Shown piece after piece: positions 40,797-63,491 of a DNA stretch of 64,000 nt (position 1 is its first letter; each line of letters starts with the position of its first letter). Below the pieces are notes generated by a model. The model was not told the origin of the DNA. It was given only the letters and a program-made list of their open reading frames with translations, and searched no databases. This stretch comes from Nocardioides caldifontis (lineage in GTDB: Bacteria; Actinomycetota; Actinomycetes; Propionibacteriales; Nocardioidaceae), in NCBI RefSeq assembly GCF_008087345.1, contig NZ_VHIB01000018.1, positions 1 to 64,000 on the forward strand, given 5' to 3'. A program made the translations under genes and the position numbers.

Positions 40797-40812
40797 CGGA
40801 TCTGCCCACCGG

Positions 40813-43167: not shown

Positions 43168-43197
43168 GCCCTTCCGGCGGCCGGGTGGTGGTCCGCC

Positions 43198-43959: not shown

Positions 43960-43980
43960 GGATGAGGGCCTTTCAGGCTG

Positions 43981-46831: not shown

Positions 46832-47919
46832 GATCCTCCCGAAGGGGCGTCCGGGGATGCCTGGTCGAACGCGAGCCGCAGCGAGGCGGCGAGGTCCTCC
46901 GGGCTACGCGCCATGTAGGGCTCGCCCAGCTGCAGGTTCAGCGCGCCGATGTCGTTCGCGTGCAGTGCGGGGGAGAAGGACAGCCGTGGTGTGAGTACGG
47001 CGTGCAGCCGCCCGCCGTCGGCGGCATCCAGGGTGGCCGGGAAGAAGGACATGTTGAAGCTCGAGATGCCGGTCTCCCCGAGTGCACCCAGCAGCCGGGA
47101 GGTGACCGTGGAGAAGTCCGCCAAGGCCGCGTCGTCGAGGGTGTCGAGCAGCTGATGGTCCGAGAAGACGATGCGCACGTCCGACAGCGCCGAGAGTGAT
47201 ACGAAGTCGGTCAGCACCGTCAAGTGCTCGCTGTCGTACACCCAGCGCTCACCCAGGGCACGCTCGGTCTCGACCAGGTCGTCGAAGTAGGGGCGCCCCC
47301 AACGCTCGAAGTACTCCCGCTGCGCGCGGATCCGCCTTTTGACGTTCTCTCCCGGCTCGTCGGTGACGATCACCTGCAGATGGGGATGGATCTGGGTCGA
47401 CGCAGCGGGCGGCATGTAGTTCCAGCTCAGCAGTGTGAACGGCAGGTCGTTCCCGGCCTCGCGTACCGCCTTCGCGTAGTCACCGGCAAGGCTGATGGCG
47501 TTGCGCAGGACGTCAGGGGACCACGCATCGATCGAGACGAAGTGCTGGGCGCAGATCACCGTCACCGCGCTGAAGGCGTCGTAGGGGGACAGGTTCGGGA
47601 CCAGGGTCGCCTCCCCCCGGCTCAGACGTCCCTCGGCGAAGACATCGGGAGGAAGCTGCGGGGTCACGACCTTCAGGCGCTCGGGACAGAAGGGGCAGAT
47701 CTCGCGGGTGGTCTCGGCAAGCTCTGCGAAGTCCTCCGGTTGAGGTTTGAATCCCACGAAGTGGGCGAGCCGACCGGTGGTGCCCAGCAACGGGTCACGT
47801 CGGATCTCGCTGGTGATCTGAGCAGGCGCCCAGTTCTGGGACGGGTCGAGGTACCGGGTGGTGCGGGGGGAGCGCTCGAAGGCGATCCCGTGGGCGCCCG
47901 GCCGGGCGGCGTCGCTCAC
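46828..47919 (-). CDS. GalT/HIT-superfamily nucleotidyltransferase-like protein
   Basis: A 363-residue protein with galactose-1-phosphate uridylyltransferase-like layout: a zinc-type CPFCPERL near residue 76, a central NLSPYDAFSAVTVICAQHF and the active-site-like HPHLQVIVTDEPGE (HPHxQ) near 178. The second half is a tandem HIT-like domain (SFNMSFFPATLD, LHAVLTPRLSFSPALHANDI). It overlaps the dehydrogenase start and is three bases from the thiolase gene, so it belongs to the beta-oxidation operon. A GalT-like enzyme has no known step in beta-oxidation; a role with nucleotides or adenylates of CoA intermediates is only a guess. Confidence 0.72.
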   Translation of the reverse strand: MSDAARPGAHGIAFERSPRTTRYLDPSQNWAPAQITSEIRRDPLLGTTGRLAHFVGFKPQPEDFAELAETTREICPFCPERLKVVTPQLPPDVFAEGRLSRGEATLVPNLSPYDAFSAVTVICAQHFVSIDAWSPDVLRNAISLAGDYAKAVREAGNDLPFTLLSWNYMPPAASTQIHPHLQVIVTDEPGENVKRRIRAQREYFERWGRPYFDDLVETERALGERWVYDSEHLTVLTDFVSLSALSDVRIVFSDHQLLDTLDDAALADFSTVTSRLLGALGETGISSFNMSFFPATLDAADGGRLHAVLTPRLSFSPALHANDIGALNLQLGEPYMARSPEDLAASLRLAFDQASPDAPSGGS

Positions 47920-47922
47920 CGC

Positions 47923-49086
47923 TCACCGCCCCAGGATGTGCACTGTGGCCGCCGCGACGTCGCCGCCCAGCCAACCACCGGCGTTCTCGGTGATCCCGAT
48001 CCGGGCACCCTCGACCTGGCGCCCACCGGCCCGGCCCCTGAGCTGGTCGGCCACCTCGACCACCTGCGCCACGCCGGTGACACCCACCGGGTGGCCCTTG
48101 CAGACCAAGCCTCCGCTGGGATTCGTCGGCAGGTCGCCTCCCACGCTCAGCCGTCCCTTGCGTACCGCGAAGACACCCTCCCCCGAGGCGAGCAGGCCCA
48201 GCTCCTCCAGCGCGATGAGCTCGGCAGGCGCGGTGGCGTCGTGCACCTCGGCCAGGTTCACGTCGCCGGGTGAGACCCCCGACTGGTCGAAGGCCAACCG
48301 CGCCGCATGGGCGACGGCCGGCTCGGAGTGCCGTCCTCGACCGGAGACCAGGCTGGAGGCGAGCAGCCGCACCGCCGTGGCTTCGCGGGTGGGCTCGATG
48401 GTGAGGACGAGCGCTGCCGCGCCGTTGCCGATGGGCGAGCACATCGGCAGGGTGAGCGGGTCGTTGATCAGCCTGGCCTCGAGAACCTCCTCGACGGTGA
48501 TGGGAGCCGTGAACTGAGCGACCGGGTTGTGGGAGGCGTGACGCCTGTTCTTCACGACCAGCGCGGCGAAGTCCTCAGGGCGTGCCTCGTGGTCGCTCAT
48601 ATAGTCACGTGCCAACTGCGCATAGATGTCCATGAACAGCGAGCCGCTGCCACGGACTTCGGGCGACTCCTCCTCCAGCCGCTCTTGGTCCACCGCTGCG
48701 GCCAAGGCGATCATCGGGCGTTGCTTGTCCTCGCTGGCCATCTTCTCGGCTCCGACGACGAGCACGGTCCCGGCCCGGCCAGCGCGCAGCGCGGTGTCCG
48801 CGAGGTGGAGCGCCGTGGAGCCGCTGGCGCAGGCGTTCTCGCAGTTGACGATGGGCACACCGCTCAGGTCGAACTGGCGCAGCAGCACCTGGCCGCGAAT
48901 CATCTCCTGCCCGGTGAGCAGGCCGCTGGCAGCGTTGCCGACGTAGACGGCGTCGATCTGATCCAGTCCGACGGCCGCGTCCTCGAGGGCGGCACGGACG
49001 GCGTGCTCGACCTGGTCGGCGGACCGGGTACTGGGGGAGCGGTCGAAGACGGCGATGCCGGTGCCCGCGACGAAGGTGTCTGTCAT
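47923..49086 (-). CDS. Thiolase (SCP-x type acetyl-CoA acyltransferase)
   Basis: A 387-residue thiolase-fold enzyme. The nucleophile is present in NCENACASGSTALHLA; the second half has VNLAEVHDATAPAELIALEE (SCP-x type; His in EVHDA), and LPTNPSGGLVCKGHPVGVTG with the GHP histidine. ITENAGGWLGGD replaces the usual C-terminal CxG, as in SCP-x thiolases. ATG 49086 overlaps the stop of the second thiolase. It likely cleaves a 3-ketoacyl-CoA with a branched or cyclic side chain. Confidence 0.88.
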   Translation of the reverse strand: MTDTFVAGTGIAVFDRSPSTRSADQVEHAVRAALEDAAVGLDQIDAVYVGNAASGLLTGQEMIRGQVLLRQFDLSGVPIVNCENACASGSTALHLADTALRAGRAGTVLVVGAEKMASEDKQRPMIALAAAVDQERLEEESPEVRGSGSLFMDIYAQLARDYMSDHEARPEDFAALVVKNRRHASHNPVAQFTAPITVEEVLEARLINDPLTLPMCSPIGNGAAALVLTIEPTREATAVRLLASSLVSGRGRHSEPAVAHAARLAFDQSGVSPGDVNLAEVHDATAPAELIALEELGLLASGEGVFAVRKGRLSVGGDLPTNPSGGLVCKGHPVGVTGVAQVVEVADQLRGRAGGRQVEGARIGITENAGGWLGGDVAAATVHILGR

Positions 49087-50243
49087 CGCTCGGCGCCCCA
49101 GCGCTCGATCAGCGTCGCGTTCGCCTGACCGCCACCCTCGCACATGGTCTGCAGCCCGTAGCGACCGCCACGTTCATCGAGCACCGACATCAGGCTGACC
49201 ATCAGGCGGGCGCCCGAGCCGCCGAGGGGATGGCCCAGGGCCATCGCCCCGCCATGCACGTTGACATGCTCGTCGTACCACTGTTCGGAGATGTTCAGTT
49301 CGTTCCGCCAAGCCAGCACGACGCTCGCGAACGCCTCGTTGATCTCGACCGCGTCGAGGTCGTCCACCACGAGGCCGGCTCGGTCGAGAACCTTGCGGGT
49401 GGCCGGGGCCGGAGCCGTCAGCATCATCACCGGGTCGTCACCGGCCAGCGCCATCGAGACCATCCGCGCACGGGGGGTCAGGCCCAGCTCCCGCGCCCGC
49501 TCGCCACTCATCAGCAGCAGCGCCGCAGCGCCGTCGGTGATCTGGGAGGAGGTCGCCGCGGTGATCACGCCGTCCTCTCTGAAGACCGGCTTCAGCGAGG
49601 CGATCCTGGCAGGGTCGGGTTCGCGGATCCCCTCATCTTGGTCCACCAGTGTCTCGCCCACCTGGACGGGGGTGATCTCGCGCGCGAAGACTCCTGCCTC
49701 CCGTGCCGCGATGGCGGTGCGGTGGGACCGCACAGCCAGCGCGTCCAGGTCCGAGCGCGAGAACCCCCACTTCTCCGCGATCCGCTCGGCCGACTCGCCC
49801 TGCGAGACCAAGGAATGCGCTGCCAGCAGCTGTTCGCTGTAGGGGGAGCCCTGGAAGGTGGCAGCGGAGCCGATCGGAATCCGGCTCATCGACTCCACGC
49901 CACACGCGATGGCAACGTCGTAATTGCCGGAGGCGATCCCTTGAGCGGCGAAGTGCACCGCCTGCTGGCTCGAGCCACACTGGCGATCGACGGTGACCGC
50001 TGGCACCGATACGGGCAGTCCCGCCGCCAGCCACGCGTTGCGAGTGACGTTGGTGGACTGTTCGCCGACCTGCCCTACGCAGCCGCCGATCACGTCGTCG
50101 ACTGTCGCCGGGTCGATTCCCGTGCGGTCGACGAGCGCGCCGAGCACATGGGCCAACAGGTCAACCGCATGCACTCCGGCCAAACCGCCTCCCCGCTTGC
50201 CCATCGGGCTGCGGACACCATCGACGATCACGACCTCGTTCAC
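49083..50243 (-). CDS. Acetyl-CoA acetyltransferase (thiolase)
   Basis: A 386-residue classical thiolase with all catalytic parts: VDRQCGSSQQAVHFA (nucleophile Cys), DAVEINEAFASVVLAW (NEAF), VNVHGGAMALGHPLGGSGAR (GHP His) and LQTMCEGGGQANATLIERWG (base Cys in CEGGG). First gene of the minus-strand operon. It resembles FadA5/FadA6-type thiolases used in steroid and fatty-acid degradation. ATG 50243 is preceded by GAGCAGCCC without a strong Shine-Dalgarno, downstream of the operator-like site at 50315. Confidence 0.92.
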   Translation of the reverse strand: MNEVVIVDGVRSPMGKRGGGLAGVHAVDLLAHVLGALVDRTGIDPATVDDVIGGCVGQVGEQSTNVTRNAWLAAGLPVSVPAVTVDRQCGSSQQAVHFAAQGIASGNYDVAIACGVESMSRIPIGSAATFQGSPYSEQLLAAHSLVSQGESAERIAEKWGFSRSDLDALAVRSHRTAIAAREAGVFAREITPVQVGETLVDQDEGIREPDPARIASLKPVFREDGVITAATSSQITDGAAALLLMSGERARELGLTPRARMVSMALAGDDPVMMLTAPAPATRKVLDRAGLVVDDLDAVEINEAFASVVLAWRNELNISEQWYDEHVNVHGGAMALGHPLGGSGARLMVSLMSVLDERGGRYGLQTMCEGGGQANATLIERWGAER

Positions 50244-50314
50244 AGGGCTGCTCCTTCACTCTGCGCGATCTCTCGCGCGGCTGTCTTCGGGTTGTGCGAG
50301 ACTCTACAATCCTT

Positions 50315-50330
50315 CGACCGATAAGTCGAT
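50315..50330. promoter_or_regulatory. TCGAC-CGATAA-GTCGA palindrome in the divergent promoter
   Basis: TCGAC and GTCGA are exact inverted arms around CGATAA. The site lies between the thiolase operon (minus, start 50243) and the Nudix operon (plus, start 50359), so one regulator could control both. GAGACTCTA lies just to its left (50309 region), and the same word follows the related site at 62096. It is the most symmetrical of the four GACCGA-type sites. Confidence 0.6.
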
Positions 50331-50358
50331 ATCCGTCTGAGTGGATGGGAGAGTGGAC

Positions 50359-51201
50359 ATGGTGGGCACTGAAGGTGAGGTCGTGACCCCGCGCAGAGCG
50401 GCGAGCGTGGTCGTGGTCCGCGACGGCGACGAAGGGGTCGAGGTGCTCCTGCTGCGCAGGACGTCGAAGGCGGCGTTCGCGCCAGACCGGTTCGTCTTCC
50501 CGGGAGGCAGCGTTGACGACAGCGATCAGCGTGTGCCGCTGATCGGTCCGCCGCAGGTGGACGAGCGTGGCCGGGCGGCGGCGCCCGCCGAGATGGTCGA
50601 CCAGGTCGCGGGTGTCGTCGACGACGTCTTCGTCGCCGGGGTGCGGGAAACGTGCGAGGAGGCGCTGATACTGCTGGCCCTCGACAGCAGTGGCGCTCCT
50701 GCGAGCGTCGATCACGCCCGCGCCGTGCGTGCTGCGATGGCGAGCGGAGCCTCGCTCGCCGAGGCGTTCGATCAGAGAGCGCTGCGTCTGGATCCCGCGT
50801 CCCTCGTCTACCACGACCGGTGGATCACTCCCGAAGGCGCACCGCGCCGGTTCGACACCTTCTTCTATTACGCCGCCACGCCGGCGGGACAGATCTCGGA
50901 GCACGACCGGAGTGAGGCCGTCGACTCCGTTTGGGTCCGCCCCAACGAGGTCCTGCATAGCGAGGAGTGGACGCCACGCCTGCTGCCGCCGACTCGATAT
51001 CACCTGTCCCTGTGCGAGCAGCACGCGGACGCGGCGGCGGTTCTGGCGGCCGCACGAGCCGACGCGGTTCACGAGCCGGTCCGCGCGCGACTGGTCTCCG
51101 ACGGGGCCGGCGGCACGGCCGTGGTGGTGCGGCCCGGTGCAGCGCCGGTGCCGTTGGGGGCGCTGCCGTGGCGGGAGCCCGGGACGAACGAGGGCCGCTG
51201 A
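50359..51201 (+). CDS. Nudix hydrolase, NUDT19/CoA-diphosphatase-like
   Basis: A 280-residue protein. RAASVVVVRDGDEGVEVLLL and FAPDRFVFPGGSVDDSDQR open the Nudix fold; the Nudix helix VFVAGVRETCEEALILLAL (REx2EE) comes only after a 45-residue insertion, which is the layout of NUDT19/NUDT7-type acyl-CoA or CoA hydrolases. ATG 50359 with GGGAGAG upstream is preferred over GTG 50341. Being the first gene of a CoA-catabolic operon, it may trim dead-end acyl-CoAs or control CoA levels. Confidence 0.8.
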   Translation: MVGTEGEVVTPRRAASVVVVRDGDEGVEVLLLRRTSKAAFAPDRFVFPGGSVDDSDQRVPLIGPPQVDERGRAAAPAEMVDQVAGVVDDVFVAGVRETCEEALILLALDSSGAPASVDHARAVRAAMASGASLAEAFDQRALRLDPASLVYHDRWITPEGAPRRFDTFFYYAATPAGQISEHDRSEAVDSVWVRPNEVLHSEEWTPRLLPPTRYHLSLCEQHADAAAVLAAARADAVHEPVRARLVSDGAGGTAVVVRPGAAPVPLGALPWREPGTNEGR

Positions 51202-51213
51202 ACCGTAGACAAC

Positions 51214-51232
51214 TTGACCGATAAGACGTAAA
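51214..51232. promoter_or_regulatory. GACCGATAAG-type site before the aldolase operon
   Basis: TTGACCGATAAGACGTAAA in the 92-base gap between the Nudix gene and the Ltp2-like gene. GACCGATAAG is identical to the sites at 20065 and 50316; the right arm is imperfect. TTGACC could also serve as a -35 element, with an AT-rich stretch (TTTACTAACTATT, 51249-51261) downstream. Confidence 0.45.
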
Positions 51233-51293
51233 CTGTCTGCTCGGTTGAAGATTTACTAACTATTAGAGTCCGTACATGAGAGAGGAGCCGTGC

Positions 51294-52442
51294 ATGCGTG
51301 AGGTTGCCATCGCCGGGGTCGGGTACACCCCGCTATCCCGCAACTCTGGCCGCACCGTCTTGTCCTTGGCTGCCGAAGCCACCCGCAACGCGTTGGCTGA
51401 CGCCGGCATGTCGAAGGACGACGTAGACGGCGTGGCGAGCTTCTCGGTGCTCAACGACTCAGTGAGTTGCGAGGCGGTGGCCACTGCGCTGGCGCTGCCC
51501 AAGCTGCGGTACGTGCTGGACTTCCAGCAGGGCGGTCAGTCGCCGAGCATTATCACCTATCAGGCGGCCATCGCCGTGGCGACCGGGCAGGCGGAGGCGG
51601 TCCTGGTCTTCCGCGCCCTCAACGGCCGCTCGGGAATCCGGGTCGGCAGTGGCGCCTTCGCCGGCGGCGCCGCGCAGTTCCGCTACCCCATCGGTTACAA
51701 CGCCTACCTGATGTACATCGCCATGTGGGCACGTCGTTACATGCACGAGGTCGGTGCGACCGAGGCGGACCTGGCAGCGGTGGCCATCGCCCAGCGGGCG
51801 TACGCGGAGTTGAACGACCGCGCGATCCTGCGCAAGCCGCTGGACATGGATGCCTACCTAAACAGCCCGTGGATCGCGGACCCGTTCCGTGCCGCCGACT
51901 GCACCACCGAGGTCGACGGAGCCTGCGCGGTTCTCGTGACCACGCTCGAGCGGGCCCGCGACCTTGCGCACCCCCCGGTCCGGGTCGCATCGGGTGCGTA
52001 CGCCGCCGGACCTCGTCCTGGTCTCGACATCGGCGACCAGCTGCTGACCGACGACTTCACCCGCAACTACGGCTACCTGCTGCGCGATGAGCTGTTCGGG
52101 CGCGCCGGGATCGGTCCGGGCGACGTCGACGTCGCCGAGATCTACGACTGCTTCACCAGCACGGTGCTGATGACCATCGAGGGGCTCGGTCTCGCGGAGC
52201 GCGGGGGAGCGGGCGAGTTCATCCGCTCCGGCGCGACCGCGATCGACGGCTCGCTGCCGATGAACACCCACGGCGGGCTGCTCGCCGAGGGATACCTGCA
52301 CGGAATGAACACGATCACCGAGGCCGTGCTGCAGGTCCAGGGCCGCTGTGGCGAACGTCAGGCACCTCGTCACGAGGTTGCCGTGGTCACCTCCGGCGCC
52401 CTCAACGACGGGTCGGCTCTGATCCTCACCGCCGACCGCTAG
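51294..52442 (+). CDS. Ltp2-like thiolase-fold aldolase (lipid-transfer protein family)
   Basis: A 382-residue thiolase-fold protein without the nucleophilic Cys: the loop reads VLDFQQGGQSPSIITYQAA. The C-terminal half has VDVAEIYDCFTSTVLMTIEG and SLPMNTHGGLLAEGYLHGMN, the Tyr- and HGMN-containing pattern of Ltp2, the retro-aldolase that with the DUF35 protein ChsH2 removes the last steroid side-chain piece. ATG 51294 (GAGGAG upstream) is preferred over ATG 51276. Two DUF35 partners are encoded at 57570 and 63056. Substrate unknown. Confidence 0.85.
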   Translation: MREVAIAGVGYTPLSRNSGRTVLSLAAEATRNALADAGMSKDDVDGVASFSVLNDSVSCEAVATALALPKLRYVLDFQQGGQSPSIITYQAAIAVATGQAEAVLVFRALNGRSGIRVGSGAFAGGAAQFRYPIGYNAYLMYIAMWARRYMHEVGATEADLAAVAIAQRAYAELNDRAILRKPLDMDAYLNSPWIADPFRAADCTTEVDGACAVLVTTLERARDLAHPPVRVASGAYAAGPRPGLDIGDQLLTDDFTRNYGYLLRDELFGRAGIGPGDVDVAEIYDCFTSTVLMTIEGLGLAERGGAGEFIRSGATAIDGSLPMNTHGGLLAEGYLHGMNTITEAVLQVQGRCGERQAPRHEVAVVTSGALNDGSALILTADR

Positions 52443-52476
52443 ACCTCTGACCTTTTCCTTTTCCTTAGGAGCCGAA

Positions 52477-53523
52477 ATGTCCGTTCTCCCCACCCGATAC
52501 ACCGAGCTCGTCGGCATCGAGCACCCGATCATCCAAGAGGGGATGGGCCCCTTCAAGACCGTGGCCCTGGCGGCGGCGGTGAGCAACGCCGGCGGGATGG
52601 GCACCATCAGCATGCCCGGTATGTCCCAGGAACCGAGCGAGGGCGCAGCGATCATGCGCAGCCACATCGCCGCCTGCGCCGAGCTCACCGACAAGCCGTT
52701 CGCGGTCAACGTCCCTGTCGGCGCTGACGACACCGGCACGGTGCTACCAATCACCGAGGCCTACATCAACGCCGTGATCGAGGCACGTGAAGCCAGCAGC
52801 AAGGTGGGCCAGCAGCTGAAGGTGCTCACCACCAGCGCCGGCTTCCCGGGAGCCTTCGCGGCGCGGATCAAGGACGCCGGCCTGATCCACCAGCACAAGG
52901 TCGGCAGCACGCGCCAAGCGATCAAGGCCGAAGAGGCCGGCGCCGACGTCATCATCGCCTCCGGCTACGAGATGGGCGGCCACACGCACCACTCACCCGT
53001 CCACACATTCGTGCTCCTGCCCAACGTCACCGCGGCGGTGTCGGTGCCCGTGCTGCTCTCGGGCGGTGCCCGCGACGGACGGACCCTGGCAGCCGCGCTG
53101 ACCCTCGGCGCGTCGGGGGTCGCGATGGGCACGCGATTCATCGCCTCGGCCGACAACACCGACTGGCACCCGTCCGTCCCGCAGTTCATCGTCGACGCGC
53201 GAGAGGGTGACGACCTGGTGTTCCCCGGCGTCTACGGCCCGGCTCGCGGCCTCCGCAACCCCGCCACGGACCGTCTGCTGGAAATCGTCGCCAACAAAGA
53301 GATGACGACCGACGAGCTGACCGAGTGGAAGGACCACGCCCTGCAGCTCGCGCAGTCCACCGGCGACTTCGAGAAGGGTCTTGTCGCAGCGGGCCAGGTC
53401 TCCAGCGGTATCCAGGACGTGATCGACGTAGCCACCTTCGTCCCCCAGATGGCCCAGGATGCCAGCGACATCCTTCAGCGACTCGTGCAGGGCCTCACGC
53501 CCGCCAGCGCCGCCAGGGTGTGA
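52477..53523 (+). CDS. Nitronate monooxygenase-like flavoprotein
   Basis: A 348-residue FMN TIM barrel of the 2-nitropropane dioxygenase/FabK type. EHPIIQEGMGPFKTVALAAA and NAGGMGTISMPGM form the N-terminal part, ASGYEMGGHTHHSPVHTFVL the phosphate/His loop, and VPVLLSGGARDGRTLAAALT plus LGASGVAMGTRFIASADNT the flavin-phosphate site. The family includes IpdC, a hydroxyacyl-CoA reductase of late steroid degradation, so an acyl-CoA redox step is more likely here than nitroalkane oxidation. It follows the aldolase by 34 bases. Confidence 0.85.
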   Translation: MSVLPTRYTELVGIEHPIIQEGMGPFKTVALAAAVSNAGGMGTISMPGMSQEPSEGAAIMRSHIAACAELTDKPFAVNVPVGADDTGTVLPITEAYINAVIEAREASSKVGQQLKVLTTSAGFPGAFAARIKDAGLIHQHKVGSTRQAIKAEEAGADVIIASGYEMGGHTHHSPVHTFVLLPNVTAAVSVPVLLSGGARDGRTLAAALTLGASGVAMGTRFIASADNTDWHPSVPQFIVDAREGDDLVFPGVYGPARGLRNPATDRLLEIVANKEMTTDELTEWKDHALQLAQSTGDFEKGLVAAGQVSSGIQDVIDVATFVPQMAQDASDILQRLVQGLTPASAARV

Positions 53524-53532
53524 CGGTCTCCC

Positions 53533-54588
53533 GTGGTAGGCGATTCCGCGCCGATTGCGTCTGGAACTCCTAACAGAGGCCTGGTGCTGCTCGGGGGAGA
53601 CCTGGACCTCGTCCAGGACGTGACCCGCCGCGCCGAGGCCGCCGGCTTCGACTCGGTCTGGACGACTGAGTTCTACGAGCGCACGGCGGTCGTATCCCTG
53701 GCGGCCATGTCGATGGTGTCCTCTCGTGTGGTCCTCGGCAGCGCGATCGCCTATGCGGTCGGGCGCTCGCCGCTCGTGCTGTCCGCCGAAGCGCGTGACC
53801 TCGATGAGCTCAGCGGTGGGCGCCTGATCCTGGGGTTGGGCACCGGCACGCGGACGATGCAGCGGGACTGGCACGGCAGCGATCCGACGGCTCCGGCACG
53901 GAGGGTGGAGGAGCTGGTTCCGCTGCTGCGTCGACTGTGGTCGATGGACGACACCGGCGTGTCACACGATGGGGATTTCTATCATCTCGCCCTGAGCCCC
54001 ACTGCGGCGGTGCGCCCACCGTTGCGAGCCGACATTCCGGTTTACCTTGCCGGCGTCAACCCGCGGATGGTGCGGGCAGCCGGCTCCGTGGCCGACGGTC
54101 TGGTCGGGCACCCGATCTTCAGTCGCCGCTACGTGGAGGACGTCGTGCGTCCGGCCCTCGACGACGGCGCAGTTCGCGCCGACCGAAGCCGCTCAGTGCC
54201 CATCGCGGGCTACGTCATCTGCAGCATCAACGAGGATCCCGATCTGGCGCTGCGTTGGGCGAAGGCGCAGATCGGCTTCTACGCCGTCGTACGCACCTAT
54301 CTGCCCGCGTTCGCCGTGCACGGCCTCGAGTCGATGGCGGCGGATGCTCGCGCAGCGTGGTCGCGACGCGACATGGACGCCATGATCGCCGCCGTTCCCG
54401 ACGACGTAGTGGAGTTGTTCGCGGTGGCCGGCACCTCGGACGAGGTCGCCCAGCAGCTGCACGAGCGGTTCGACGGACTGTACGAGCAGACGTTGCTGTA
54501 CTCCCCGAGTTTCGGCTTGGATGCGGCGCAGCTGCAGGGCAACGTCGAAGCCATCATGGAGCTTCTCGCCCCCGGAGGGGCGGCATAA
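53533..54588 (+). CDS. LLM-class (F420-type) oxidoreductase
   Basis: A 351-residue luciferase-like monooxygenase fold. Conserved parts: RRAEAAGFDSVWTTEFYERT, LGSAIAYAVGRSPLVLSAEA, LDELSGGRLILGLGTGTRTM and ADIPVYLAGVNPRMVRAAGS. GTG 53533 is nine bases after the previous stop. In actinobacteria most such enzymes use F420, but FMN use cannot be excluded. It could reduce or dehydrogenate an acyl-CoA intermediate. Confidence 0.82.
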   Translation: MVGDSAPIASGTPNRGLVLLGGDLDLVQDVTRRAEAAGFDSVWTTEFYERTAVVSLAAMSMVSSRVVLGSAIAYAVGRSPLVLSAEARDLDELSGGRLILGLGTGTRTMQRDWHGSDPTAPARRVEELVPLLRRLWSMDDTGVSHDGDFYHLALSPTAAVRPPLRADIPVYLAGVNPRMVRAAGSVADGLVGHPIFSRRYVEDVVRPALDDGAVRADRSRSVPIAGYVICSINEDPDLALRWAKAQIGFYAVVRTYLPAFAVHGLESMAADARAAWSRRDMDAMIAAVPDDVVELFAVAGTSDEVAQQLHERFDGLYEQTLLYSPSFGLDAAQLQGNVEAIMELLAPGGAA

Positions 54589-54593
54589 CAGCG

Positions 54594-55607
54594 GTGGGGC
54601 TCGCCGGCTGGGCGGTCGCGGAGTTCGGAAGTGGGCCGGAGCGTCTCGATGTGCCGCTCGGAGTCCACCTCGCGGCGCGGGCCGCCGTGAACCACGCAGG
54701 TCTGAGCCGCGCCGACATCACCGGGGTGGTGCTCGCCGGCTCCGACGCCTTGGACGGCCGCCTGATCTCGTCGATGCACATGGCCGGACCGGCTGGAGGC
54801 TACCTCAAAGACGAGACGAAGGTCGTCGACGATCCGAGCGTCGCACTCGCCTCGGCGGTGTGGCGCGTCTCCTCGGGAGCCGACCGAGCGGTACTCGTCG
54901 TCTCCTGGCACAGCCCCGCAGAGTCCGATCCCTTCAACGCCGTCTCGCCCGACCCCGAGCCGGTGTTCTCCAGACCCGTCGGCGCGCACCCGCTGGCGGC
55001 CGAAGCCCTGGCGGTCACTCGCTGGCTGCACGCCCACGGACTCAGCGCCGACCGCTTCGACTCCCTCACGGCGTTCCTGACCCCCGACAAGGCCGACGAC
55101 GACCGGCTCTGGTTCACCCCGCTCAGGGCGGCGCACGTCGCCCCCGTCGACGGGGCCGCAGTGGCGGTGCTAGTCTCGGCCGCCGGGGCGCGCGCGGAGA
55201 TCAAGGCTGTCGACTTCGCCAGCGACAGCGGGCTGCCGCTCGAGCAGCATCCAGACCCGGTGGGCAGGCTGCGGCAGCGGATGCTGGCGCGCACCGGTAG
55301 CGACCCCGCTCATGCCGAGGTCATCGAGACCACCGACCGGACGGTCTTCCGTCTGGTGATGGCCGCCAACGCGCTCGGTCTGGGGCAGCCGAGCGAGGTC
55401 GCCGACGCCGTCATCGAGGGCGGGTTGTCGCACCTGCAGCCCTCAGGTGGGCTGTTCCGCCGCAACGCCGGCTATGCCGCCGGACTGGAACGGATCGTGT
55501 GCGCCGCCGAGGCAGTCGAGCGCGGCGCCTTGAGCGCACTTGCGCACTGTTCGTACGGTCGAGCCGGACAGGGGCACTCGCTCACAGTGCTGGGGGCGCC
55601 GTCATGA
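54594..55607 (+). CDS. Thiolase-fold protein without catalytic cysteine (short)
   Basis: A 337-residue, shorter than usual thiolase-fold protein. HLAARAAVNHAGLSRADITG and VWRVSSGADRAVLVVSWHSP mark the N-terminal half; at the Cys loop there is MAGPAGGYLKDETK, with no cysteine. The end reads QPSGGLFRRNAGYAAGLERI, so the GHP histidine is missing too. GTG 54594 is placed after GGAGGGG. Its stop overlaps the next thiolase-fold gene, suggesting a heteromeric complex, as in BbsAB-type or DUF35-thiolase systems. Confidence 0.72.
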   Translation: MGLAGWAVAEFGSGPERLDVPLGVHLAARAAVNHAGLSRADITGVVLAGSDALDGRLISSMHMAGPAGGYLKDETKVVDDPSVALASAVWRVSSGADRAVLVVSWHSPAESDPFNAVSPDPEPVFSRPVGAHPLAAEALAVTRWLHAHGLSADRFDSLTAFLTPDKADDDRLWFTPLRAAHVAPVDGAAVAVLVSAAGARAEIKAVDFASDSGLPLEQHPDPVGRLRQRMLARTGSDPAHAEVIETTDRTVFRLVMAANALGLGQPSEVADAVIEGGLSHLQPSGGLFRRNAGYAAGLERIVCAAEAVERGALSALAHCSYGRAGQGHSLTVLGAPS

Positions 55608-56806
55608 GCCTCACCAGACCCGGCGTCGTGGGCGTCGGAATGACGCCGATGCGCACTCGCCGGCCCGACACCGACCTCTTCGGACTCATTCGCGATGCTT
55701 CCGTCGCTGCCTTGGGCGACGCAGATGTGAGCATGGCCGACGTCGATCTGGTAGTGCTCTCGCAAGGCCCGGACGCCCTGTACGGCATCGGACATCCCGA
55801 ACAGGAACTCGTCGACGTGCTCGCCGCTCGCGGCAAGCGGGTGGTGAGGGTGCAAACCGGTGGGGCCACCGGCACGTCCGCGGCGCAGATGGCCTGGTGC
55901 GCCATCGCTGCCGGAGAGTCCCAATGCGCGCTGGTGGTCGGGGCCGACAAGATGGGCGACTCCCAACAGTCGGCACAACACGTCCTCAACCTCATCTGGG
56001 ATCCGGCCTACGAGGCTCGCCTGCCGTTGAACACGATCTCGATGACCGCGCTACAGGCCCAGCGCTATCTCCACCGCCATGGCATCGGCTTGCGCCGTGG
56101 CGAGGAGGCATGGGCACAGATCGCCTCCAGGTTGCGGAACAACGGAGCACTCAACCCCGCAGCCCAACTGCGGAACCCGGTCACCCCTGACGAGGTGCTC
56201 TCCAGCCCACTGCTGTTCGCACCGATCCGGCGCGACATGGCCTGTCCCCAGACCTCAGGCGGCGCCGCCGTGGTCATGGTTTCGGCCGAGCGCGCAGCCA
56301 CCATCGCCCGACCGGTGGCGTGGATCGACGGGTTCGCGGCCCGCTCCAACACCTACTTCCTGGGCGACAAGATGGGTGCAGCCGGCGACAACGATCACGG
56401 CTCGTTCCTCGAGCTGTCGCGTGCCGCGGCGGCCGCCTACGCCCAGGCGGGCATCACCGACCCGGCTCGTCAGATCGACGTCGCGGAGCCCTACATCCCC
56501 TTCGCCACGATGGAGCCGATCGCCGTCGAGGCGCTCGGGTTCTCCGAACCGGGCCAGGGCATCGCCGACGCGGAGAAGGGCCGGTTCGATCGCGGCGGCG
56601 AGATCCCTGTGTGCCCCTCGGGCGGCGTGCTCTGTGCGGCCCCCATCAGTGTCAGCGCCCTCGTACGGTTCGCCGAAGGGGCGCTCCAGGTCCGCGGACG
56701 CGCCGGGGATCACCAGATTGATGGGTGTCGCACCGCCGTCGTGACCGGTGCTGGCGGCTCGATCCAGTTCGCGGGCGTAGCCGTACTTCGGGGGGAGGAC
56801 TCGTGA
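55604..56806 (+). CDS. Thiolase-fold protein without catalytic cysteine
   Basis: A 400-residue thiolase/Ltp-like protein. RPGVVGVGMTPMRTRRPDTD and VSMADVDLVVLSQGPDALYG are N-terminal family pieces. The Cys loop is VQTGGATGTSAAQMAWCAIA, where Ala stands at the nucleophile position. The second half has IDVAEPYIPFATMEPIAVEA and VCPSGGVLCAAPISVSALVR, without GHP. It overlaps both neighbours in four bases. With the preceding protein and the DUF35 gene at 57570 it probably forms a non-decarboxylating C-C bond enzyme such as an aldolase. Confidence 0.76.
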   Translation: MSLTRPGVVGVGMTPMRTRRPDTDLFGLIRDASVAALGDADVSMADVDLVVLSQGPDALYGIGHPEQELVDVLAARGKRVVRVQTGGATGTSAAQMAWCAIAAGESQCALVVGADKMGDSQQSAQHVLNLIWDPAYEARLPLNTISMTALQAQRYLHRHGIGLRRGEEAWAQIASRLRNNGALNPAAQLRNPVTPDEVLSSPLLFAPIRRDMACPQTSGGAAVVMVSAERAATIARPVAWIDGFAARSNTYFLGDKMGAAGDNDHGSFLELSRAAAAAYAQAGITDPARQIDVAEPYIPFATMEPIAVEALGFSEPGQGIADAEKGRFDRGGEIPVCPSGGVLCAAPISVSALVRFAEGALQVRGRAGDHQIDGCRTAVVTGAGGSIQFAGVAVLRGEDS

Positions 56807-57567
56807 CACGGGTAGGACAGGTCCTCATCGATCGCGTCGGTAGCGTCGTGCATGCGCGGCTCGACCGGCCCGACGTGCGCAACTGCATCGACTTCGGCAT
56901 CATCGAGGGGCTCGAGCGCGCAGTCGAGATGGCGCGTGCAGACGCGTCGGTGCTGGTCGTTCGTGGATCCGGTGGGCACTTCTGCGCAGGCGCCGACCTC
57001 GACCTCGTGCGTGGCCTGATCGGCGACCGGGAGGGACTAGAGGCCTACGTGACGCGGCTGAGCGAGGTCCTCGACGCGATCGAAGCAGGCCCGTTCGCGA
57101 GTCTGGCGGCCATCGAAGGGTACGCGGTCGCCGGCGGCTGCGAGATGCTGCTGGCGTGCGACGTGGTGCTCGCTTCGACCGAAGCCCGCATCGGCGACCG
57201 GCACCTGGAGCATGCTCTTCTGCCCGGTGCCGGCGGCTCGGTCCGGCTGGTCCGTGCCCTGCCTCGGGCATACGCCCGGTGGCTCCTGCAGAGCGGCGAG
57301 ATGATCTCGGGCGACCAGGCTCAAGCATGGGGCTTGGCCGCGTTGGCCGTGCCGCCGGACGAATTCGAGTCCGAGCTCGACCGGGTCGTCAACCGTCTCG
57401 CCTCACGGGACAGGGTCGCGATGACCGCAGTCCGCGAGATGGCCCGCTGCGCCGAGGACGAGCCGCCAGCAGCCGCCATGCAGCGTGAGCGAGAGCTCTT
57501 CCTCGACCACATCACCACGAGTCCGAACGTCCGCGAGCAACTCGATGGCTTCGTGAAGAGGAGCTGA
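56803..57567 (+). CDS. Enoyl-CoA hydratase/isomerase
   Basis: A 254-residue crotonase: GGHFCAGADLDLVRGL and IEGYAVAGGCEMLLACDVVL form the oxyanion hole; IGDRHLEHALLPGAGGSVRL holds a Glu (HLEHA) and the usual PGAGG, so hydratase activity is plausible. GTG 56803 overlaps the thiolase-fold stop in GTGA. Upstream of an aldolase, a hydratase would supply the 3-hydroxyacyl-CoA that is cleaved. Confidence 0.87.
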   Translation: MTRVGQVLIDRVGSVVHARLDRPDVRNCIDFGIIEGLERAVEMARADASVLVVRGSGGHFCAGADLDLVRGLIGDREGLEAYVTRLSEVLDAIEAGPFASLAAIEGYAVAGGCEMLLACDVVLASTEARIGDRHLEHALLPGAGGSVRLVRALPRAYARWLLQSGEMISGDQAQAWGLAALAVPPDEFESELDRVVNRLASRDRVAMTAVREMARCAEDEPPAAAMQRERELFLDHITTSPNVREQLDGFVKRS

Positions 57568-57569
57568 CC

Positions 57570-58043
57570 ATGGGCGACGCCCTGACCAGTCACGTCGTGA
57601 TCCCGGGGGCCTGGCACCTCGACTTCCGGCACGCGGCGGGGCCGGCGGCGAGCCGGTTCCTCACCACTGTGCGGGAGCGGGGGGTGTTGACGGCCTCGCC
57701 GTGTCCTGCCTGCGGCCGGATCCGAGTGCCCCCCCGCGACTTCTGCGAAGAATGTTTCGCTGCTACCTCCGACGACTGGCCGGACGTGGGGCCACACGCC
57801 GTCGTCGAGGCGGCGACCATCGGCTACACCAGCTTCCCGGGCTATCCGGAGCCGCCGTATGCCCTGGTCTACGCGCGCCCCGAAGGCGCGGATACAGCCA
57901 TCGGAAACTTCCTCCAGGGGATAGATCTGAGTGACTACCACGTGGCGCTGGAGCGGATGCACATCGGTGCCGCCGTCACTGCCGTGTTCGAGGGCGAGCG
58001 CTCCGGGCTCGTCACCGACTTCCACTGGGCCCTAGCCGACTGA
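57570..58043 (+). CDS. DUF35 zinc-ribbon/OB-fold protein (thiolase partner)
   Basis: A 157-residue Zn-ribbon OB-fold protein. The ribbon is CPACGRIRVPPRDFCEEC (residues about 45-62); the OB fold follows (VVEAATIGYTSFPGYPEPPY, FLQGIDLSDYHVALERMHIG). DUF35 proteins such as ChsH2 and BbsA bind thiolase-fold partners. It lies two bases after the hydratase, in the same operon as three such partners. Confidence 0.85.
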   Translation: MGDALTSHVVIPGAWHLDFRHAAGPAASRFLTTVRERGVLTASPCPACGRIRVPPRDFCEECFAATSDDWPDVGPHAVVEAATIGYTSFPGYPEPPYALVYARPEGADTAIGNFLQGIDLSDYHVALERMHIGAAVTAVFEGERSGLVTDFHWALAD

Positions 58044-58061
58044 TTCATGAAGGAGTGACCT

Positions 58062-59255
58062 ATGCCCGCCACCGACCGTTCACAGCAGGGGATCGAGCTC
58101 GACGTCCCCTGGTGCTTCACCGACGACCACCGCTCGTGGCGCACGGTGCTACGCAACTTCACCACCAGCGTGCTCGCGCCGACCGTGGCGCAGCGCACCA
58201 TCGACGCCACGTTCGACGAATCGATCATCGATGGCTTGGGCGAACTGGGCGTCTTCGGCCTTCGCGTGAGTGAGGAGTACGGCGGCTCCGGCTCCGACAT
58301 CACCTCCTTCTGCCTGGCTGTCGAGGAGATCACGCGGGTCGACGGCGGCGTCGGCGCCAGCGCGCACGTACAAGGCATCGCCTGCGCACTGTTCGAACGG
58401 CTCGCCAACGACGAACAGAAGAAGGAGATCCTTCCACAGGCGGCGCGTGGCGAGATCTTCATCTCCTTCGGTCTCACCGAGCCCAGCGGTGGCTCCGACG
58501 CCGGCAACATCCGTACCGCCGCCGTGAGGGACGGCGACGGGTGGCGCCTGAACGGATCGAAGGCCTTCATCACCAACCCGGGCACGCCGCGATCGAAGTA
58601 CGTGATCCTCTTCGCCGCGACCGGTCCCGGCCGGCCCGGTCGCCCGGAGGTCTCAGCCTTCCTGGTCCCTCTGGATGCACCCGGAGTCGAGGTCGGTCCC
58701 GCCTACGACAAGATCGGATGGCGCACTTCCGACACGCATCCGCTGTACTTCGATGACGTCCACCTGGGGCCGGACGCGCTCCTGGGCGACGCCGGTCGCG
58801 GATACCGTGAGGCGTTGGGGTTCCTCACCTGGGCCCGCCTGCCGATCGCGTCGGCATCGGTAGGCATCGCCCAGGGGTGCCTCGACGCCACGCTGGATTT
58901 CGTCCAGACGCGCGAGTCGTTCAATCAGCGCCTCGGCGACCACCAGGCCGTCGGATTCAAGGTCGCTCGGATGGCTGCGGCAACCGCCGCGGCCCGATCG
59001 ATCACCTACGACGCCTGTTGGAAGATGGACCACGGCCACCCCTACGAGCAGGAGGCGGCGATGTGCAAGCTGGTCGCCTCCGAGATCTGCAACAAGGTGG
59101 CCTACGACGCCACGCAGCTGCATGGTGGAGCGGGTTTCATGATGGATTCGACGGTGACGCGACTCTATGGAGACGCCCGGGTGATGACCATCGGTGAAGG
59201 TGCATCCGAGGTCCAGCAGATGCTGATCGGTCGAAGCCTCGGCCTCAAGGTGTAG
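58062..59255 (+). CDS. Acyl-CoA dehydrogenase
   Basis: A 397-residue dehydrogenase: LGVFGLRVSEEYGGSGSDIT, FGLTEPSGGSDAGNIRTAAV, FVQTRESFNQRLGDHQAVGF, LHGGAGFMMDSTVTRLYGDA and the final MTIGEGASEVQQMLIGRSLG with the catalytic-region Glu. It has a longer N-terminus (about 20 residues) than its paralogues. AGGAGTGACC precedes ATG 58062. It is the last gene before a strong terminator hairpin. Confidence 0.9.
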   Translation: MPATDRSQQGIELDVPWCFTDDHRSWRTVLRNFTTSVLAPTVAQRTIDATFDESIIDGLGELGVFGLRVSEEYGGSGSDITSFCLAVEEITRVDGGVGASAHVQGIACALFERLANDEQKKEILPQAARGEIFISFGLTEPSGGSDAGNIRTAAVRDGDGWRLNGSKAFITNPGTPRSKYVILFAATGPGRPGRPEVSAFLVPLDAPGVEVGPAYDKIGWRTSDTHPLYFDDVHLGPDALLGDAGRGYREALGFLTWARLPIASASVGIAQGCLDATLDFVQTRESFNQRLGDHQAVGFKVARMAAATAAARSITYDACWKMDHGHPYEQEAAMCKLVASEICNKVAYDATQLHGGAGFMMDSTVTRLYGDARVMTIGEGASEVQQMLIGRSLGLKV

Positions 59256-59294
59256 GAGACGGCCCGTGCCGGGGCGTCGGCACGGCTGATCCGA

Positions 59295-59334
59295 CGATTC
59301 GGCCAGCGGCCCGGGGGGGCCGCTGGCCGAATCG
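59295..59334. terminator. 17-bp perfect hairpin between convergent operons
   Basis: CGATTCGGCCAGCGGCC (59295-59311) pairs completely with 59318-59334 around a six-base loop. There is no T-run, as is usual for actinobacterial terminators. It stands between the dehydrogenase stop (59255) and the end of the convergent CoA-transferase genes (59442) and could stop transcription from both sides. The rest of this 186-base gap shows nothing else. Confidence 0.82.
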
Positions 59335-59441
59335 CGTGACGACACCACCGCACTCCACAGGCGACGGCGCGACCCGACCACCCATCGTCGTCAGATCCCT
59401 CGGCCGCCGACGGGTGCCCCCAGCACCCCGCGGATCCCGAC

Positions 59442-60233
59442 TCAGTCCAGGCGCAGGCGTCGCAGCACACCGCCGGGATCCACCCGTTCGCGGAGCATGG
59501 TGAGTTCCTCGTCGGTCGGCGACGGCGTCAGGGGAACCTCGCCGGGTGTCGACGACGGCAGGTCGAACCCGGTGCGTTTGCGGACCTCGTCGGGGGTGTG
59601 CCCAGGATGCACCGACTTGAGCCGGAGCGTGTCGTCATCGCCGAAGTCCAAGACCGCCAGCGGAGTCACCACCAGTTGGGGGCCGTCGGAATGCGGGTCG
59701 CAGAACTCTCGACGCGCAGCCGTGCGCCCCGGTGCGCTGACATGATCCACCTCGTCGATGAAGATCCGCTTGTCGTGGCGCTGCACGAAGATCATGGTGC
59801 GCGTGAAGTAGGCCGCGAAGACCAGCCCGACCGTTCCTGGACCGCGGACCCGCAGCTTCGGGTAGTCACGTCCGATACCGACCATGTTCACGTTCCCGTG
59901 GCGGTCGACCTGCATGCCACCGAAGATCCCCACGGTGGGCGCCTTGCGCCAACCACCGAGCTCGAAGTCGACGATGTCCTCGAGGCGAAAGGAGTGCTCC
60001 GCGCTGTCGAGGGTCACCGGGTCGGCAGTCGACTTCACCAGTGGCGCCGCCGAGTTGATCGCACCGCCGCCGCCGCTGAGCCAGTTGAGGTCGGGGGCGT
60101 GCATCAGGCGGGCGAGCTGGAAGGCCGCCATCGGAATCTGCGAGTTGGCGCCACAGGCACCCCACTCCTCGTTGCGCAAACCGCGCGCCAAGGTGACGGC
60201 CATCAGCTCGCTCGTGGTAATCGTCTCGGTCAT
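59442..60233 (-). CDS. CoA-transferase family I beta subunit, IpdB-like
   Basis: A 263-residue beta subunit. WGACGANSQIPMAAFQLARL, TVGIFGGMQVDRHGNVNMVG, KLRVRGPGTVGLVFAAYFTR and LAVLDFGDDDTLRLKSVHPG are close in pattern to IpdB of steroid degraders, including the VHPGxTPDEVRxxTxFD end. ATG 60233 overlaps the alpha-subunit stop by four bases. In IpdAB this heterodimer hydrolytically opens a cyclic beta-diketone CoA ester; the same or a related ring opening is plausible here. Confidence 0.85.
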   Translation of the reverse strand: MTETITTSELMAVTLARGLRNEEWGACGANSQIPMAAFQLARLMHAPDLNWLSGGGGAINSAAPLVKSTADPVTLDSAEHSFRLEDIVDFELGGWRKAPTVGIFGGMQVDRHGNVNMVGIGRDYPKLRVRGPGTVGLVFAAYFTRTMIFVQRHDKRIFIDEVDHVSAPGRTAARREFCDPHSDGPQLVVTPLAVLDFGDDDTLRLKSVHPGHTPDEVRKRTGFDLPSSTPGEVPLTPSPTDEELTMLRERVDPGGVLRRLRLD

Positions 60234-61132
60234 GCTTCGCTCCGTCCGGCGTGAGCAGTGGGATCGACACGCAGCGTGCCGAGCAGACGCTGCACTCCTA
60301 CACGTTCCAAGTACTCGTGGTGATCTTGCGGTTCGTTCACATACCTCGTCATCCACTCCTCGGGGGAGCGCACGTATTCCTCCAGCATGCGCTCGTCACG
60401 TCCGTAGTGACCCGCCGACGAGGTGGGGTGTGCGGCGAAGGGAAGCGCGACGACGGCCGAGACCATGAAGCTCGGAACGGTCACCTGTTTGTGCCGGCCC
60501 GACCTGGCGTAGTCGTCGGGCACGATCTCGTCGGTGACCACGATCGCGGTCTTCGACGCTCGCAGGATCAGGTCGTCCTGATAGATCGGACCGTCCAAGA
60601 AGACGTTGCCGAAGCGGTCGCAGCGTGGCGCGTGCACGATCCCCACGTCGGGGCGCATCGCCGGGATCGCCACGTGCTCGTGGCCGGAGTAGGGATCCAC
60701 CACGGTGCGGAAGAGGTCCGGCGACAACGCGCGCGTGCCGGTCGCCTCGTGGCCGCGCGGCAGTGGCATGAAGGGCAGATTCGCCGCCGCTGCCTTGAGC
60801 CCATAGATGGTGAACGGCTCGTCGACGTCGTGCACCACGATCGTGGAGCTCTCGGCGGCAGCACGGAACGCGGGCGCCAGCCCGAAGTCCTCGAGCCCGA
60901 CGTACGCCGTGTAGACCTCGGCGACGGCCCCGGCAGCGACAAGAACCTCGACGGGAAGACCGGCCGACACGTTCGGCAGTAGGCGGAGGTTGCGTCGCTT
61001 GTTGCGGGCGAGCTCACGGATGATCGGCATAGGCGACGCGTGCGCATGGATGCCGCCGATCGCGACCAGGTCGCCGTCGCTCACCAGGTCGGCCGCGGAA
61101 GCGACGTCGATCACCTTGCTGCGTCGGTTCAT
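60230..61132 (-). CDS. CoA-transferase family I alpha subunit, IpdA-like
   Basis: A 300-residue alpha subunit: VSDGDLVAIGGIHAHASPMP, YVGLEDFGLAPAFRAAAESS, YGLKAAAANLPFMPLPRGHE and VGIVHAPRCDRFGNVFLDGP. The AAANLPFMP stretch is typical of IpdA rather than GctA. ATG 61132 overlaps the LLM gene stop by four bases. Its length agrees with known IpdA proteins (about 290). Confidence 0.85.
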   Translation of the reverse strand: MNRRSKVIDVASAADLVSDGDLVAIGGIHAHASPMPIIRELARNKRRNLRLLPNVSAGLPVEVLVAAGAVAEVYTAYVGLEDFGLAPAFRAAAESSTIVVHDVDEPFTIYGLKAAAANLPFMPLPRGHEATGTRALSPDLFRTVVDPYSGHEHVAIPAMRPDVGIVHAPRCDRFGNVFLDGPIYQDDLILRASKTAIVVTDEIVPDDYARSGRHKQVTVPSFMVSAVVALPFAAHPTSSAGHYGRDERMLEEYVRSPEEWMTRYVNEPQDHHEYLERVGVQRLLGTLRVDPTAHAGRSEA

Positions 61133-62064
61133 ACCATCTCCTCAGTGGTCACGGCCGACTGGAATCGTGCGCGAACCAGCGTGGCCACATCCATGATCCG
61201 GGGCATCTGGTCTTCCAGGTCGGAGCCTGCGATGCGGCAGATCACATCGGTGACGCCGGCCTCGACGAAGGTGGCGATCTCCTCGGCACACTGGTCGACG
61301 TCACCGGCAATGCAGTAGCGGCGCATGGGCTTGGGGTCCATGGCGTAGACGTCGCCGATGAAGGCGCTGGCGTCTCGCCATGCGCGGTCGGCGTCGTCGT
61401 CCACCCGGATATAGACGTGCAAGCCGGCGGTCAGCTCCTCCGGGGCGCGGCCGGCGTCCGCCGCCATGGCGAGCAGCGCCGACCATCGCTCGGCATAGCG
61501 CTCGGGCGTGACGAAGGCCCCCAGCCAGCCATCGCCGAACCGCGCGGTGCGCGCCAAGGCGGCGTCCGCCCGTCCACCGTGCCACAGCGGGATGCGGCTC
61601 TGCACTGGAGGCGGCTGGAGGCCATGCGGGTTGTCGGGGCGCCACATCTCGCGCAGCGACCCCATCAGTTCGGTGGTCCTGCGACCGCGCTCTGCCATCG
61701 GTACGTCAGCCAGTTCGAACTCGGCGCGATTCTCGCCTCCCACACCGAGACCGAGGAGGACGCGTCCTTCGCTGAGTGCGTCGATGGTGGCCACGGACTT
61801 GGCGACCCAGGCGGGGTGCCGGAGCACTCCGAGCAGCACTCCCGACGCGACCGTCACCTCTCGGGTCACGACTGCGGTGGCCGCCATCATCGACAAGCAC
61901 TCATACAGCGGGACGTGAAAGCTCAAGTGGTCGCCGAACCACACCGAGGAGTAGCCGAGCTCCTCTGCCAACACGGCAGAGCCGACCACGTCGCTCGCAG
62001 TTCGCAGGGGCGACCCGAAGTTGTTGAGTCCTACCCCGAAGCGCAGCGGTTGCGTCACGCGCAT
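61129..62064 (-). CDS. LLM-class (F420-type) oxidoreductase
   Basis: A 311-residue luciferase-like protein. RFGVGLNNFGSPLRTASDVV, ELGYSSVWFGDHLSFHVPLY, IDALSEGRVLLGLGVGGENR and HGGRADAALARTARFGDGWL are family segments. It is the first gene of the minus-strand IpdAB-like operon and diverges from the hydratase at 62193. F420 dependence is inferred from the actinobacterial background only. Confidence 0.83.
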   Translation of the reverse strand: MRVTQPLRFGVGLNNFGSPLRTASDVVGSAVLAEELGYSSVWFGDHLSFHVPLYECLSMMAATAVVTREVTVASGVLLGVLRHPAWVAKSVATIDALSEGRVLLGLGVGGENRAEFELADVPMAERGRRTTELMGSLREMWRPDNPHGLQPPPVQSRIPLWHGGRADAALARTARFGDGWLGAFVTPERYAERWSALLAMAADAGRAPEELTAGLHVYIRVDDDADRAWRDASAFIGDVYAMDPKPMRRYCIAGDVDQCAEEIATFVEAGVTDVICRIAGSDLEDQMPRIMDVATLVRARFQSAVTTEEMV

Positions 62065-62093
62065 TTCCTTCCATACGACCAGAGGGTTGACGT

Positions 62094-62110
62094 TCGACCG
62101 ACAGGTTGAG
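62094..62110. promoter_or_regulatory. TCGAC-CGACAG-GTTGA site in the divergent promoter
   Basis: TCGACCGACAGGTTGA resembles the palindrome at 50315 (TCGACCGATAAGTCGA) at 13 of 16 positions and is likewise followed or preceded by GAGACTCTA. It lies between the LLM/IpdAB operon (minus) and the hydratase/DUF35/dehydrogenase operon (plus). Confidence 0.5.
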
Positions 62111-62192
62111 ACTCTAGCCGCAGCAGGACGCCCGCGCTAGGGCGGTAAGACGTCGCGTCGAGGTTCGATGCGACAGAGCAAAGGAGACAGCA

Positions 62193-63029: not shown

Positions 63030-63055
63030 GCCCAGTTGATCAGCCAGGAGGATCC

Positions 63056-63475: not shown

Positions 63476-63491
63476 AACCGAGGAGACAAAG

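Follow-up and report, generated by a model that had tools for sequence, protein, structure and literature searches.

The closest described relatives of the system considered here are thiolase-fold enzymes that work with DUF35 proteins. Ltp3-Ltp4 of Mycobacterium tuberculosis (Rv3523-Rv3522, beside Rv3521) has been described as a heteromeric aldol-lyase for the removal of the C24 branches of sterols (PMC6678751); PMC8708139 likewise cites ltp3/ltp4 as the aldol-lyase genes for C24-branched chains. Ltp2-ChsH2 and Sal-Shy(DUF35) are the aldolases of the steroid C3 and bile acid C5 side chains, respectively; the catalytic roles of Tyr294 and Tyr344 of T. curvata Ltp2 and of the Sal Cys have been defined (PMC12329534). 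DUF35 proteins and thiolase-fold subunits also come together in the PhlABC and MucABC acyltransferases, the archaeal thiolase/HMG-CoA synthase/DUF35 complex and the benzoylsuccinyl-CoA thiolase BbsA-BbsB. In a 64,000-nucleotide stretch of Nocardioides caldifontis DNA (contig NZ_VHIB01000018.1, positions 1 to 64,000; the window), we found two adjacent thiolase-fold proteins, here termed ThA and ThB, which lack the nucleophilic Cys and are encoded with a DUF35 protein (57570). We hold it probable, with moderate confidence, that the three constitute a heteromeric Cys-less C-C lyase of the Ltp3/Ltp4 type. The genes of the window that bear on this prediction, with the evidence for each, are:

54594-55607 (+): ThA, putative Ltp4-type partner thiolase-fold subunit, 337 aa, GTG start (33.6 bits against the Ltp4 model PRK07937, cut-off 419; AlphaFold2 model; conservation)
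55604-56806 (+): ThB, putative Ltp3-type thiolase-fold subunit, 400 aa, ATG start (295.3 bits against the Ltp3 model PRK08313, cut-off 514; AlphaFold2 model; conservation in 80 homologs)
56803-57567 (+): crotonase-fold protein, GTG start (PF00378, 1.3e-35; alignment)
57570-58043 (+): DUF35 protein of the ThB-associated type with a C4 zinc ribbon, likely the ThA/ThB partner (PF12172, 6.4e-08; PDB 3IRB, 3.2e-08)
51294-52442 (+): predicted Ltp2-like Cys-less thiolase-fold aldolase, 382 aa (PDB 6OK1_A, 7.6e-73; PRK07855, 337.1 bits, cut-off 469; motif positions)
52477-53523 (+): NMO-family FMN protein with the nitronate monooxygenase/FabK fold (PF03060, 1.2e-48; PDB matches FabK and PA1024)
53533-54588 (+): luciferase-like (LLM) flavin/F420 oxidoreductase (PF00296, 1.3e-59; TIGR03617, 198 bits, cut-off 278)
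58062-59255 (+): acyl-CoA dehydrogenase, final gene of the run (PF00441, 1.1e-44)
63056-63475 (+): second DUF35 protein, ChsH2 type, likely partner of 51294 (PDB 6OK1_B, 2e-19; 9MYR_B, 1.7e-19)
47923-49086 (-): canonical SCP2-type thiolase, nucleophile Cys86 (PF22691 and PF00108; alignment)

The open reading frames at 51294, 54594, 55604, 56803 and 57570 form a single collinear run on the forward strand, with 4-nt overlaps between ThA and ThB and between ThB and the crotonase gene, as an initial annotation of this DNA had placed them. That annotation had also described three thiolase-fold proteins without a nucleophilic Cys, and this description is borne out by Pfam, structural models and alignment. 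Pfam Thiolase_C_1 matches 51294 (6.7e-36) and ThB (3.2e-27). ThA has no Pfam match at all, and a sequence search of PDB returned no thiolase for it; its AlphaFold2 model, built from relatives (predicted local distance difference test score, pLDDT, 82), is a full-length thiolase fold with a top Z of 35.9 to 6ET9. The corresponding model of ThB (pLDDT 90) is likewise a full-length thiolase fold (Z 56.9 to 6ESQ), and the top structural matches of both are DUF35-bound thiolase complexes. With the SCP2-type thiolase at 47923-49086, which is divergent from the run and outside the trio, as the reference for the nucleophile position, the residue aligned to its Cys86 is Gly81 in 51294, Gly87 in ThB and approximately Val78 in ThA, where the alignment is weak. 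By the same alignment, the nucleophile Cys of the thiolase subunit of PhlABC-type acyltransferases is also missing. The loop GPAGGYLK, which had been quoted for ThA, lies about 10 residues upstream of the nucleophile position, and there is no Cys at either site. Cys214 of ThB, conserved in 80 of 80 relatives, was considered as a replacement nucleophile and set aside as an improbable one, as it aligns with no thiolase catalytic Cys, though it may lie near the active site.

With a ThB alignment as the query, 80 loci were recovered from named genomes. The closest relative is from Nocardioides furvisabuli (97% identity) and the others are 36-45% identical; their hosts belong to Actinomycetota, Pseudomonadota and Bacillota, with one Chloroflexi metagenome-assembled genome (MAG). 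A thiolase-fold partner gene lies immediately upstream of ThB in 73 of the 80 loci, and all 73 have a DUF35 gene within 3.5 kb; among the remaining seven, several are short contigs or begin near the gene. The DUF35 protein 57570 is itself closest to those encoded next to ThB elsewhere (37-45% identity for the nearest seven). The ratio of nonsynonymous to synonymous substitution rates (dN/dS), computed against two relatives, is 0.03-0.25 across these genes, 0.09-0.13 for ThB and 0.16-0.25 for ThA, so purifying selection acts on both subunits. Given these ratios and an arrangement that is repeated in dozens of genomes, the observation is not due to chance. Elsewhere, a single 475-aa protein (L073:1237-2661, reverse strand), divergent from a ThA-ThB-DUF35 locus, joins a C-terminal domain of the KAS III type and a DUF35 OB domain in one chain, and small actinomycetotal genomes of other classes (for example G700:C4:24300-25843, G433 and G494) carry up to five copies of the thiolase-like family per genome, several of which are adjacent tandem pairs in phylum-wide matches.

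One of the loci, from Mycolicibacterium rhodesiae, exceeds both NCBIfam cut-offs (PRK07937, 642.3 against 419 bits; PRK08313, 755.7 against 514 bits) and has the gene order LLM-DUF35-ThA-ThB, which is that of M. tuberculosis Rv3520c-Rv3521-ltp4-ltp3 (numbering and names per PMC6429209). From family scores and gene order, rather than from comparison with the M. tuberculosis sequences themselves, we infer that this is an Ltp3/Ltp4 locus and, on the same footing, that Rv3521 is a DUF35 protein. The window shares with the Ltp3-Ltp4/Rv3521 system two adjacent Cys-less thiolase-fold genes, a DUF35 gene and an LLM gene, and by gene order and folds the pair probably fits this type in its broad sense; Ltp3 and ThB further agree in the Gly at the nucleophile position, the Tyr at the base position and Gln388. 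In the loci nearest to the window pair, one DUF35 gene follows ThA and ThB, whereas Ltp3/Ltp4 loci have tandem or double DUF35 genes upstream of the pair; the window DUF35 protein has four Cys, which the tandem mycobacterial ones lack. Both ThA and ThB fall below the NCBIfam cut-offs (33.6 of 419 and 295.3 of 514 bits, respectively) and so are not classed as Ltp4 and Ltp3. ThA-type and ThB-type proteins part in a maximum-likelihood tree into two clades whose subgroups broadly correspond; the window ThB clusters with L070-L073, of which three are proteobacterial loci and one is an actinobacterial MAG (support 95/95), outside the 71-row clade that contains Ltp3 (100/100), while the branch of ThA is very long (3.6 changes per column) and its exact placement unsure.

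The conservation pattern of ThB suggests which residues might act. Its relatives have Gly at the nucleophile position (80 of 80), Tyr297 (79 of 80), Asn at the position of the thiolase catalytic His (79 of 80) and Gln388 (80 of 80). Tyr297 aligns with Tyr284 of 51294, which is in turn aligned with Tyr294, the catalytic base of T. curvata Ltp2, and hence ThB has a residue that could serve as the base for retro-aldol cleavage in the manner of Ltp2. Position 381 is His in most relatives and Thr or Ser in the window clade (Thr in the window ThB). At the thiolase His position, Ala346 is seen in the window ThB and N. furvisabuli only; Asn346 is kept by the ortholog in G030, a genome of the same class and another family. 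In ThA, Thr247 replaces the base Tyr; Arg300 and Gln326, which are invariant, and the near-invariant His318 are among its most conserved polar residues.

On these observations we posit that ThB would be the catalytic subunit, in which Tyr297, from the position of the Ltp2 base, would deprotonate the beta-hydroxyl of a 3-hydroxyacyl-CoA, and that the ensuing retro-aldol cleavage would free a short acyl-CoA and a carbonyl product. ThA would complete the dimer and shape the active site, and the DUF35 protein would flank the ThA-ThB dimer as ChsH2 does in Ltp2-ChsH2. We prefer an aldol-lyase because the trio is conserved and its best-known relatives are aldol-lyases. The initial annotation had suggested that the pair could be a heteromeric thiolase-like enzyme with a DUF35 subunit, catalyzing a retro-aldol or acyl-transfer reaction not yet described: the trio 54594-55604-57570 is indeed a conserved unit with aldol-lyase relatives, but an enzyme of this kind is not new, as the Ltp3-Ltp4 heteromeric aldol-lyase is published (PMC6678751) and the same trio occurs in mycobacterial loci.

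Several points weigh against assigning the trio to the Ltp3/Ltp4 type. The identities are remote (about 20-28% between ThA and Ltp4 and about 35-40% between ThB and Ltp3). Two near-invariant residues of the family are altered in the window ThB (N337 to Cys and N346 to Ala), and therefore its active site is not identical to that of Ltp3; a general acid equivalent to Tyr344 of Ltp2 is not visible in the ThB alignment. The Ltp3-Ltp4 reaction itself rests here on genetics and review statements, which were all that a literature search for an assayed complex returned (subscription papers being mostly outside the search). Tentatively, the trio could be a heteromeric lyase with a catalytic layout unlike those of Ltp2, Sal and Ltp3 (with only Tyr297 kept, Asn346 lost and a general acid not to be seen in ThB), in which His318 and Gln326 of ThA might share in the active site and which acts on a non-sterol alicyclic or branched acyl-CoA within a catabolic gene set common to several phyla; we consider this possible, if rather unlikely. 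The departures of the window clade from the active-site residues of Ltp2 and Ltp3 (T381 for His, N346A), along with the slow decarboxylation of malonyl-CoA by related SLP proteins (PMC12329534), would also suit a different enolate reaction on an acyl-CoA, such as decarboxylation, hydrolysis or isomerization. Among relatives that have been studied functionally, the nearest ones with this trio are described as aldol-lyases, which makes such a reaction unlikely.

Catalysis might instead have been lost in this lineage, with ThA and ThB merely binding or channeling acyl-CoA for neighboring enzymes, as might be read from the very long branch of ThA, its want of recognizable thiolase catalytic residues and the disappearance of Asn346 from ThB in the window and N. 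furvisabuli only. We find this distinctly doubtful, given that ThB retains Tyr297, E295, E304, R355 and Q388 and evolves under the constraint noted above, and that the G030 ortholog keeps Asn346. An acyl-transfer or condensing enzyme with DUF35 as a scaffold is suggested by the top structural matches, which include 6ESQ, PhlC and MucABC, all from DUF35-bound multi-component enzymes. PhlABC, MucABC and the thiolase/HMG-CoA synthase enzymes work via a nucleophile Cys (a C88S variant of CsATase is deposited as 9SKM). ThA and ThB have none; with Gly at this position in all 80 ThB relatives, Val in ThA and Ala or Asn in place of the thiolase His, such an activity is very improbable. The resemblance to BbsA-BbsB lies in a DUF35 and thiolase-fold partnership and a match of ThB to 7PXP (5.4e-18); ThB (69.8 bits) and 51294 (125.5 bits) both miss the BbsB equivalog cut-off of 750 bits.

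Upstream of the predicted Ltp3/Ltp4-type lyase, 51294 fits the Ltp2 pattern that had been assigned to it. It aligns over its full length with 6OK1_A and retains both catalytic Tyr residues, Y284 corresponding to Y294 and Y334 to Y344 of T. curvata Ltp2. Its motif is YDCF, where Ltp2 has YDHF, and it misses the PRK07855 cut-off. The motif recalls the YDC(F/Y) of Sal with its Tyr and Cys: Cys286 lies at the position of the catalytic acid Cys304 of Sal, which fits an aldolase and is no argument against one. The second Tyr, kept in 51294, is Gln in Sal, and no MaoC-DUF35 fusion is seen. The initial annotation implied one DUF35 protein for all three thiolase-like proteins. This is unlikely given a second, ChsH2-type DUF35 gene that it had not listed, 63056-63475, near the window edge between a crotonase gene (62193-63029) and an acyl-CoA dehydrogenase gene. 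Its product matches ChsH2 and Shy (6OK1_B and 9MYR_B), whereas 57570 has 3IRB as its best PDB match and reaches only 0.33 against ChsH2. Locus L070 has both systems, and there the DUF35 protein beside the Ltp2-like gene resembles 63056 (31%, 3.7e-19) and that beside ThB resembles 57570. Because the matches of 63056 and 57570 differ in this way and the pairing in L070 agrees, a separate DUF35 protein for either aldolase is most likely, 57570 for ThA/ThB and 63056 for 51294. By analogy with L070, 63056 is probably the partner of 51294, although, unlike the hydratase-fused DUF35 domain of ChsH2, it is a free protein and is encoded 11 kb away.

The neighborhood includes acyl-CoA dehydrogenases, a CoA-transferase III, a TetR regulator, thiolases, the NMO- and LLM-family flavin proteins and an IpdAB/AibAB-like CoA-transferase pair, and a similar gene kit is carried by L070; the set looks like a CoA-dependent catabolic pathway. 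We predict that ThA-ThB-DUF35 would act in it alongside the separate Ltp2-like 51294 (probably with 63056), the acyl-CoA dehydrogenases, the flavin enzymes and the IpdAB-like pair. The latter (59442-61132, reverse strand; alpha subunit against PDB 6CO6, 7.6e-28, and 5MZW, 5.4e-27) is of the CoA-transferase fold, suggesting a ring-opening or decarboxylation step. The crotonase 56803 had been labeled a hydratase, which is doubtful: at what we take to be the catalytic Glu pair of enoyl-CoA hydratases, the first Glu is kept and the second is His, in the window and in orthologs. The crotonase 62193-63029 likewise has His for the second catalytic Glu, conserved in orthologs. Both may be hydrolases or other crotonase-fold enzymes instead.

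The blocks 43183-59269 and 59441-64000 are collinear with G030 at about 80-86% DNA identity, and among the other 244 genomes sampled in the order none yielded a ThA match of E 1e-20 or better, which suggests horizontal transfer. In G030 (L025:14595-18006), an insert of about 3.4 kb interrupts the ortholog of the acyl-CoA dehydrogenase 58062 behind residue 235; it resembles a 1.7 kb insertion element with inverted ends, present twice in tandem. Synonymous divergence (dS) from N. furvisabuli ranges from 0.06 to 0.48 between neighboring genes over 47923-61132, suggesting recombination within the cluster. A 363-aa protein of the CoA catabolic operon (46828-47919, reverse strand; 84% identical in G030) has no Pfam or strong NCBIfam match; its CPFC and HPHLQ motifs recall HIT/GalT proteins. 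A sterol substrate gains no support from HsaA, the sole ring-degradation marker checked: its match in the genome of the window is partial and below the cut-off, G030 has no match, and full matches are found in the three genomes with the mycobacterial-type block. A cluster of the acyclic terpene utilization type (29778-41338; AtuA, biotin carboxylase, carboxyltransferase and acyl-CoA ligase) adjoins the block shared with G030, and was set aside as a part of the pathway since it lies outside that block.

These results place a hard-to-recognize thiolase-like pair in a single widespread family, in which Cys-less thiolase-fold proteins occur in pairs and together with DUF35. The family is found across Actinomycetota, Pseudomonadota and Bacillota, and the sterol-degrading Ltp3-Ltp4 is, to our knowledge, its only branch with an assigned role. 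By analogy with that branch, the window pair is probably a divergent version of an already known kind, which splits a C-C bond in a CoA-bound substrate. Its study offers two predictions on enzymes that, lacking a nucleophilic Cys, split C-C bonds in CoA thioesters: that Tyr297 would be the base, and that the pathway would use two aldolases, each with its own DUF35 protein.

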